A stretch of DNA of 64,000 nucleotides, from contig MKTC01000025.1 of NCBI GenBank assembly GCA_001897535.1, positions 1 through 64,000 of the forward strand. Reading direction: 5' to 3'. This stretch comes from Bacteroidetes bacterium 37-13. Its GTDB lineage: Bacteria; Bacteroidota; Bacteroidia; Chitinophagales; LD1. This document shows, one piece after another, positions 3,903 through 50,329 of this stretch. The translations under genes were made by a program, and so were the position numbers. The notes under the pieces are model-generated. The model did not search any database and was not told where the DNA came from. It was given only the letters and a program-made list of their open reading frames with translations. Within the stretch, counting starts at the first letter, position 1; each line of letters starts with the position of its first letter.

Positions 3903-4772
3903 ATGGCAAAAAAGCGCATCAATAAAAATAGTAACACGCTCAAAAACCGTTATCGTTTTGTTGTATTGAACGATGAGACTTTTGAGGAAAAATTTGCGCT
4001 TACACTTACCCGAAACAATGCTTTTGTATTTATCAGCACCATTGTGGTAGTTCTAATTGCGCTCACCAGCGCTGCAATTATTTATACACCTTTAAAATAT
4101 TTCATTCCCGGTTTTGGAGATTACAACTACCGCAGCCAAATACTTCAACTTCAATTTAAAGCCGATTCAATAGAAAATCGCATTCAAGCCAGAGAAGAAT
4201 GGCTTGCTAATGTCAATAAAGTAATGAGAGGAGAAATTGATACCACCATTCCAAAAGCACCGCAGAAAACAGAAGCAAAAGTTGAAAAAGTAAAAGGACC
4301 TTCAAAAGCAGAAGAAGAACTAAGGAAAATAGTTGAAGAGGAAGAAACATTTTCTTTAAGCTACAATGCAGCTTCCATAAACGAAGAATTGGAAGAGTTA
4401 AAGCAAATTCATTTTATAGCACCGGTGAATGGTTTTGTAACCGATGATTTTAATTCTGCCAATGCACATTTTGCATTAGATATTGCCACCAATAAAGATG
4501 AGCCGGTGAAAGCAATTTTAGATGGAACTATCGTGAGTGCCAACTTTACTTTAGACGGTGGATATACCATTGCTGTTCAGCATAAAGATAATTTAATAAG
4601 TTTTTACAAGCATTTAGGCACTATTTTAAAGAAAACGGGTACATTTGTACGAGCAGGAGAAGTAATTGGTATTGTAGGTAACACGGGTGAATTGACTAAC
4701 GGCACACATCTCCATTTTGAAATTTGGAAGAACGGAAAGCCAATAAACCCACGAACAATTATCCCTTTTTAG
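3903..4772 (+). CDS. M23 family metallopeptidase, membrane anchored
   Basis: N-terminal TM segment; C-terminal LytM/M23: HFALDIATNKDEPVKAILDG...HLGTILKKTGTFVRAGEVIGIVGNTGELTNGTHLHFEIWKNGKPINP. Confidence 0.9.
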   Translation: MAKKRINKNSNTLKNRYRFVVLNDETFEEKFALTLTRNNAFVFISTIVVVLIALTSAAIIYTPLKYFIPGFGDYNYRSQILQLQFKADSIENRIQAREEWLANVNKVMRGEIDTTIPKAPQKTEAKVEKVKGPSKAEEELRKIVEEEETFSLSYNAASINEELEELKQIHFIAPVNGFVTDDFNSANAHFALDIATNKDEPVKAILDGTIVSANFTLDGGYTIAVQHKDNLISFYKHLGTILKKTGTFVRAGEVIGIVGNTGELTNGTHLHFEIWKNGKPINPRTIIPF

Positions 4773-20508: not shown

Positions 20509-20513
20509 AAAAG

Positions 20514-20881
20514 TGGAGCTGGCGGGGATCGAACCCGCGTCCGGCTAAGGTAGAAATAGACCCTCTACATGCTTAGTTACTTATTGCTTTTCGTGCTTGC
20601 GGCAGGTTAAGTAATCCCACCAACCGAAGCCTTACAACCGTTAATACGCAACTTGGCAAGTGGATGAATCTTGCACAAGGCGACACCGAGTTTTGGTTGC
20701 CAGCGCGCTGTGTACGGTGTCTCAAGCGCGGGGCAAATGGTACTTAACCTCTAAGATTAAGCAGCCATGGCGTAGTTATATTCGCCAATTAAAAAGAATC
20801 TGTAAATGGATTATCGAGCTACTTACACGCTCGGCATGCCGGTTTACTTATACTGCTTCCCGTCAATTCCATGTCAGCCCC
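20514..20881 (-). ncRNA. ssrA: Transfer-messenger RNA (tmRNA); tag ends GEYNYAMAA*
   Basis: 5' GGGGCTGACATGGAATTGACGG pairs with 3' GGTTCGATCCCCGCCAGCTCCA; tag ORF GGCGAATATAACTACGCCATGGCTGCTTAA; -7 element TATCTTTG upstream (20919-20926). Confidence 0.95.
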
Positions 20882-49566: not shown

Positions 49567-49706
49567 CTGTTGGAGCAGGACTCGAACCTACAAGAGGCGG
49601 TTAGCCAAAGCAAGCATTGAAGTTTTCCTCAACGCTTGCCGGGTTTATTCCGTTTTCCTCACCCACGAGACCGGTGGGTATGTTTGCCAAATTCCATCAC
49701 CCAACA
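49567..49706 (-). ncRNA. tRNA-like RNA: class II body with ~70-nt insert at the variable arm
   Basis: Acceptor TGTTGGG/TCCAACA (G73), D-arm GATGGAATTTGGCAAACAT, CCCAC-CGGTCTC-GTGGG arm, insert with 11-bp hairpin GCAAGCGTTGA/TCAATGCTTGC, T-arm GTAGG-TTCGAGT-CCTGC. Confidence 0.6.
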
Positions 49707-49723
49707 ATTTTAAGAACACGATG

Positions 49724-49831: not shown

Positions 49832-50329
49832 ATGGAAAAACAGCTTCTTGATTACGAAATTGATAATACAGATATTCAGTTATTGAATATTTTACAAACA
49901 AATGCTTTCACACCATTCACCGAAATAGCAAAAGAATTATACGTTTCTCCTGGCACAGTGCACGTGCGCATGAAAAAACTTACCGATGCCGGTATCGCAA
50001 AAGCCCCGCAAATACAAATAGATTTGCCTAAAATGGGTTACGATATCACTGCGTTTATTGGTGTTTACCTCAACAAAAGCGATATTTACGAAAGCGTTGT
50101 AAAAGCATTGAAAAAAATTCCGGAAATAGTAAGTTGCCACTACACAACAGGAAACTATAGTTTGTTTTTAAAAATTCACTGCCGCGACACGCAACATTTA
50201 AGAACCGTTTTACACGAAAAAATCCAAAAAATTGAAGGAATAAACAGAACCGAAACTTTAATTTCTTTAGAAGAAAGTTTTGTTCGTAACTTAGAACTTC
50301 CGTTAAAGAAAACACAACACAAAAAGTAA
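49832..50329 (+). CDS. Lrp/AsnC-family transcriptional regulator
   Basis: DIQLLNILQTNAFTPFTEIAKELYVSPGTVHVRMKKLTDAGI HTH plus RAM-like domain. Confidence 0.92.
   Translation: MEKQLLDYEIDNTDIQLLNILQTNAFTPFTEIAKELYVSPGTVHVRMKKLTDAGIAKAPQIQIDLPKMGYDITAFIGVYLNKSDIYESVVKALKKIPEIVSCHYTTGNYSLFLKIHCRDTQHLRTVLHEKIQKIEGINRTETLISLEESFVRNLELPLKKTQHKK

Follow-up and report, generated by a model that had tools for sequence, protein, structure and literature searches.

The minus strand of the window (the whole stretch of 64,000 nt of Bacteroidetes bacterium 37-13 DNA analysed here) holds a 140-nt locus that looks like a tRNA at both ends and has a long insert in between. This raises the question of whether the locus is a decayed tRNA gene or encodes an expressed structured RNA and, in the latter case, what such an RNA might do. 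The tRNA-like RNA spans 49567-49706 (-), position 1 of the RNA corresponding to 49706 and G73 to 49567; its parts, given below in window coordinates, all lie on the minus strand.

The tRNA-like fold and its variable arm

The preliminary description, made from the sequence, had named an acceptor stem with G73, a D-arm of the ATG..CAT kind, an anticodon arm and a T-arm, and all of these elements are present at the locus. The acceptor strands TGTTGGG (49700-49706) and TCCAACA (49568-49574), the latter followed by G73 and by C74 (49566), were paired in 100% of the aligned cells, with changes on both sides in five of the seven pairs. The D-arm (49680-49697) is of the tRNA-Leu type, its ATG and CAT strands enclosing G18 and G19, which were found in 78/78 copies. 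The anticodon arm CCCAC-CGGTCTC-GTGGG (49662-49678, loop 49667-49673) presents G34, U35, C36 and C38 as tRNA-Asp does, together with G33 and U37, and the T-arm GTAGG-TTCGAGT-CCTGC (49575-49591) preserves T54, T55, C56, G57 and A58, invariant in 78 copies. The RNA has the 7-bp acceptor, D, anticodon and T arms of the canonical tRNA cloverleaf (Rfam RF00005), and the acceptor/T branch was 7+5 in all aligned copies.

The extended variable arm (49594-49660), of about 67 nt, is structured and completes a class II tRNA-like fold. It is composed of a GAGG/CCTC stem, an ANNN bulge, a CGG/CCG stem, an internal loop and an apical hairpin (49605-49643). The GAGG..CCTC stem and the 11-bp hairpin had already been pointed out and both exist in the window RNA; the second stem, CGG/CCG, which covaries, and the invariant ANAAA/CYAA internal loop extend that account, as do the Asp identity set, the linkage to an AsnC-type regulator and the phage copies considered below. 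The 5′ strand of the internal loop, AATAAA (49644-49649; consensus NANAAA), contains an A-N-A-A-A series invariant in 78 copies, and its 3′ strand, CTAA (49601-49604; consensus CYAA), has C, A and A invariant in these copies. The predicted folding of the window RNA was better than that of dinucleotide shuffles (z -2.71), and the RNA scored 140.3 bits with covariance model R1, which is the score of a training member, since R1 was trained on family copies that include the window copy.

The pairs of this structure covary. In alignment A3 (79 copies, 77 distinct), which was aligned to the covariance model and is hence biased toward the structure, 98.6% of the pair cells were paired, 19 of the 29 pairs had compensatory changes, both-side changes were observed in 295 cells, and variable-arm helices 4 and 5 covaried. 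The covariation score of A3 was 0.411 vs 0.165 in shuffles (0/500) and at most 0.104 for slid partners. An independent MAFFT alignment of the window's family (A2) agreed, with 98.6% paired and compensatory change in seven pairs.

The apical part of the variable arm evolves fast, ranging from 6 to 83 nt across copies. In 106 of 203 extracted inserts, about half of them and nearly all phage copies included, the apex is a GGTNGACCA-hairpin domain, whose closing G-C pair was conserved in 61/61 representative inserts and the next pair in 50/61; the window's genus has a plain apical hairpin instead. An intron in a tRNA-Leu was ruled out as the nature of the insert, given that the conserved stems and internal loop persist in copies with 6-nt apical inserts. 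Kissing-loop dimerisation via apical palindromes, which are mostly GTCGAC from the GGTCGACCA loop, is not claimed, their enrichment being weak (20/122 vs 11 expected).

Among known RNAs, tRNA-Leu shares with this one the sequence and size of the D-arm, the T-arm, the promoter type, an uncoded CCA with C74 and a long variable arm two nt ahead of the T-stem. The body is considered to be of the Leu type because an ordinary tRNA-Leu was the second R1 match in the window genome (C10:116032-116115), and the D-arms of the genome's tRNA-Leu(gag/tag) are nearly identical to that of the RNA. The RNA differs from tRNA-Leu in its acceptor TGT..ACA, its 67-nt structured variable arm and a GUC-type loop with U37 in place of a Leu anticodon, and it carries G73 (78/78 copies) rather than A73. 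With tRNA-Sec and allo-tRNAs (PMC7609411) it has in common a long variable arm and deviations from the canonical tRNA fold, whereas its branch is the ordinary 7+5 and not 8+5, 9+3 or 8+4, it has no UCA anticodon, and its variable arm is far larger. Similarly to tmRNA, beside which it is carried by phages, it has tRNA-like ends closing a structured insert; unlike tmRNA (RF00023), it keeps an anticodon arm, which has covarying pairs, it has no tag reading frame and its insert lies in the variable arm. The window's tmRNA is located elsewhere (20513-20881). T-box leaders and viral tRNA-like structures also involve tRNA-related recognition outside elongation, yet the RNA has a gene to itself, with a separate promoter and, for many copies, a terminator, and is not placed in an mRNA or at the end of a viral genome.

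Distribution among Bacteroidota and phages

Within the genus, 3/3 genomes had homologous DNA, as did 24/30 within the family. Covariance model R1, built from 22 family copies, matched 204 of the 299 genomes of the order, about 171 of them strongly after removal of 33 weak matches (E above 1e-15), those listed being of ordinary-tRNA length. In a phylum-wide sample, matches above 85 bits came from 16 genomes of the same class outside the order and three outside the class, with a clear gap between these strong matches and the tRNAs, which scored 53 bits or less; strong R1 matches extend to orders of Bacteroidota beyond this one and to one further class. When the GTDB collection was scanned with a sequence pattern, at least 120 stretches were retrieved, and every record among the matches listed belonged to Bacteroidota, with Chitinophaga, Dyadobacter, Cyclobacterium, Algoriphagus, Saprospiraceae, Marivirga, Fulvivirga and others represented. 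Tandem arrays of two to six copies were also observed.

ARAGORN made no call at the RNA in the window or in 30 loci from homologue searches, and Rfam 15 gave no match at the window RNA at E≤10 and none at the RNA copies in 18 diverse-homologue loci at E≤0.1. No plasmid matched the window copy, and a plasmid-borne origin was accordingly set aside. No earlier description was found in the literature searched, which lay mostly outside subscription journals and preprints. The RNA therefore appears to be previously uncatalogued; its homology to tRNA is clear, and it is best described as a tRNA paralogue. As a separate observation, the Rfam sRNA Flavo-1 had a near-threshold match (40.7 bits, cut-off 42) at L135:433-500, about 800 nt upstream of an RNA copy.

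Its rejection by ARAGORN and Rfam is what a tRNA pseudogene or a chance fold would lead one to expect. This reading, of negligible probability, is ruled out by the covariation and the phylum-level conservation, and a chance fold in particular is settled by the homologues counted above in genus, family and order together with the compensatory changes. The preliminary description had proposed covariance and conservation as a check, which returned strong compensatory covariation and widespread homologues, and its preference for a structured RNA over a decayed tRNA is borne out.

The RNA is also carried by 33 IMG/VR contigs. On contigs of 35-170 kb it lies inside phage tRNA arrays, in several cases beside a phage tmRNA, and phage-type proteins were recognized on three sampled contigs, namely a portal protein (L279), an ATP-dependent DNA ligase with an endonuclease (L305) and a primase/helicase-like protein (L293). 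Searches of named phages with the window copy and two viral copies gave no match; a third viral copy had a sole named-phage match, to an uncultured phage of 636 kb that carries an RNA copy among its tRNAs. The accessible portion of a huge-phage study, in which tRNAs were identified with tRNAscan-SE and tmRNAs with ARAGORN, holds no mention of such an RNA (PMC7162821).

Some further features of the phage contigs were recorded. Phage tmRNA genes adjoin the RNA in L285, L304, L306, L294, L301 and L289, with tag peptides ending in ADYAVAA. An extra short hairpin is found in the D-loop of the phage copies L294:1468-1626, L285:646-804, L304:1298-1456, L306:7558-7716, L281:2953-3110, L301:7143-7311 and L289:671-839. 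RNA-carrying phage contigs also have other aberrant Leu-like tRNAs (L286:9980-10112 and 4588-4706 (-); L307:3170-3298 (+); L309:5951-6099 (+)), with the acceptor AGTCAGG..CCTGACT, A73 and long inserts in the D, anticodon or variable regions, which possibly constitute a second family of phage tRNA-like RNAs.

Gene anatomy and the divergent regulator

As had been noticed at the outset, the Bacteroidota –7 element TATATTTG (49731-49724), of the form TAnnTTTG, lies 17 nt upstream of the RNA, and a T7 run (49564-49558), the presumed terminator, follows it. A boxA-like GTTCTT leader motif (49712-49717) stands between promoter and RNA and also occurs upstream of the genome's genuine tRNA genes, many of which have TAnnTTTG and/or a GTTCTTT leader; the promoter that had been claimed is in this way of a kind common to genuine tRNA genes. 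Across copies, TAnnTTTG was found within 75 nt upstream in 34/78 vs 3.2 in shuffles. For GTTCTT within 45 nt upstream, the figures were 18/78 vs 0.8 in shuffles. The nucleotide after G73 is C in 78/78 copies, as in genuine tRNAs. Downstream, terminator hairpins with a T run were detected at 16/78 copies vs 0 in shuffles, and T5 or longer within 60 nt at 50/78. Judged from these motifs, the anatomy is that of a tRNA gene and not of an mRNA leader.

Divergently from the RNA, at 49832-50329 (+), lies the only PF01037 gene of the window genome, which encodes a Lrp/AsnC-family regulator of the AsnC type. AsnC is its best NCBIfam match, with 159.5 bits against a curated cut-off of 227 for AsnC itself (PRK11179 / NF008384). 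The regulator is the only recurrent neighbour of the RNA: it adjoins the RNA in 37 of the 51 loci compared, drawn from at least eight families, and was divergent in 37/37, the two genes being separated by a median of 141 bp. Other families of the class also preserve the pair (G438, G502), as does a genome of another class (G562). When 27 RNA-negative genomes were searched, most had no orthologue of the regulator or distant paralogues only, and six kept an AsnC orthologue that lacked a neighbouring RNA. Genomes of family f18, in which the RNA occurs in arrays, encode the regulator at a separate location. No second partner gene recurred widely beside the RNA or the AsnC gene, the other flanking genes being variable. 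The motif TTGCAA recurs between the two genes, and as a candidate operator it is inseparable from the –33 promoter element.

On the other side of the RNA, a hydrophobic 38-aa ORF (49552-49436 (-)) starts 14 nt after its end in the window, and similar single-pass ORFs of 37-41 aa lie within about 125 nt downstream in most loci of the window's family.

Aspartate identity, decoding positions and possible function

Aspartate identity in bacteria rests on the strong determinants G73, G34, U35, C36 and C38 and further on G10, G1-C72 and G2-C71, and G1-C72 has been reported to help AspRS position the 3′ end (PMC9976931). The five strong determinants and G2:C71, which the RNA shares with tRNA-Asp(GUC), are invariant in 78 copies, a count that leaves out the copies fetched by DNA pattern, since that pattern fixes the loop. 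The RNA differs from tRNA-Asp(GUC) in its class II body, A10 (71/78 copies), U1-A72 (78/78), U37 and the failure to keep U33. Eighteen further copies from other orders had GUC in 16 cases, UUC in one and CUC in one, R1 having been trained on GUC copies and so favouring their discovery. The two Glu-type triplets at 34-36 occur in L149:1501-1610 (UUC) and L154:1501-1615 (CUC).

The varying positions of the anticodon loop are 32, 33 and 37. Position 33 is U in 63 of the 78 copies, C in nine and G in six, and position 37 is U in 72, C in three and G in three, never A; the U33 and purine 37 of canonical decoding are not maintained. The absence of U33 reported in the preliminary description applies to the window's genus and, elsewhere, to a minority of copies, and it does not hold as a general feature. 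The genome also encodes a normal tRNA-Asp(GTC), according to a tRNA set derived from an Rfam search (150/265 candidates scored) and ARAGORN, and the loop of the window RNA differs from the loop of this tRNA (CTGTCAC) at 33 and 37 only. We infer that the RNA remains recognizable to AspRS and has given up decoding: with the strong AspRS determinants kept, the RNA is most probably charged with aspartate, and with U33 and purine 37 abandoned it would act outside ordinary decoding, the drift at 33 and 37 favouring a non-decoding tRNA.

Taken as a whole, the evidence favours, at an even chance of being correct, a tRNA paralogue that is transcribed independently, is probably aspartylated, does not decode and is controlled by the AsnC-type regulator, and which phages carry as well. 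Such a gene would have originated from a tRNA-Leu-type body and would be transcribed from its own tRNA-type promoter, the transcript maturing as a tRNA by RNase P cleavage, 3′ trimming and CCA addition. The product is predicted to adopt the L shape of a class II tRNA, with a variable arm that was turned into a long structured extension, which might serve as a platform for the RNA's own partner. The divergent AsnC-type regulator, sharing the intergenic region, most likely sets the RNA level in response to an amino acid. The charged RNA could divert or supply aspartyl-RNA, in the role of a sink, a sensor or a donor that serves Asp/Asn metabolism or a tRNA-dependent enzyme, and phages may bring this activity with them through the copies in their tRNA arrays. 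The fold, its covariation and conservation, the synteny and the phage carriage come out of the computations, and from these the maturation, charging, lack of decoding, regulation and function are inferred. Several points go against this explanation. A10 replaces G10 and U1-A72 replaces G1-C72, so charging with Asp could be weak, and AspRS might clash with a variable arm of such length. The presence of U33 in most copies leaves some room for decoding; two of the other-order copies have UUC or CUC at 34-36; the AsnC neighbour is missing in the arrays of f18; and an AsnC orthologue persists in six genomes that lack the RNA.

The main rival, unlikely on balance, is an uncharged decoy or sponge, whose tRNA-like shape would bind AspRS, a tRNA-cutting nuclease or a regulator. 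Conservation of the AspRS contact bases without the decoding bases agrees with a decoy, its carriage in phage tRNA arrays would fit a decoy that counters tRNA-targeting defence, and tandem arrays of up to six copies would fit titration. However, the presence of G73 and C74, together with an acceptor of all 7 bp in which compensatory changes occur, suggests that the 3′ end is kept for CCA addition and charging, and deep chromosomal conservation with one regulator exceeds the needs of a phage decoy. A genuine elongator for the Asp codons GAC/GAU, whose variable arm would be exceptionally large, is a reading that we regard as improbable. It would account for the intact cloverleaf, the GUC anticodon, the frequent U33 and the position in phage tRNA arrays, yet no copy has A at 37, 15/78 copies, those of the window genus included, have C or G at 33, and the same genome has a normal tRNA-Asp(GTC).

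Equally doubtful is charging by SerRS, owing to the class II body with G73, or by LeuRS, giving a Ser- or Leu-carrying RNA. The Leu-like body counts in favour of this reading, but the reading offers no explanation for the invariance of G34, U35, C36 and C38. A73 is the Leu discriminator for LeuRS, and the RNA lacks it. Serine identity depends mainly on the variable arm and G73, the anticodon being ignored (PMC9976931), which favours Ser charging, although U1-A72 departs from the Ser acceptor set. Finally, the RNA might act in cis on a neighbouring gene, as a T-box-like leader or attenuator, in keeping with the small hydrophobic ORF often found downstream in the window's family. This possibility is disfavoured and very improbable, given the terminators that some copies have behind their 3′ ends, the variable gene content downstream, and the copies in tandem arrays and phage tRNA clusters.

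Returning to the aspartylated paralogue, the RNA may tentatively be viewed, at somewhat below an even chance, as representing a new functional class among bacterial RNAs, in which a tRNA paralogue accepts aspartate without decoding, its variable arm being an independent structured domain, with its own AsnC-type regulator and a place in the tRNA/tmRNA arrays of large phages. An RNA conserved in many Bacteroidota and phages appears to have evaded tRNA finders and Rfam, and its carriers include the cultured genera Chitinophaga and Dyadobacter, which makes the claim directly testable. If the RNA is charged with Asp outside decoding, it would represent a new use of aminoacyl-RNA, in metabolic sensing, tRNA-dependent modification or translation control, tied to a Lrp/AsnC regulator, and would offer a reason for phages packing it among their tRNAs and tmRNA.
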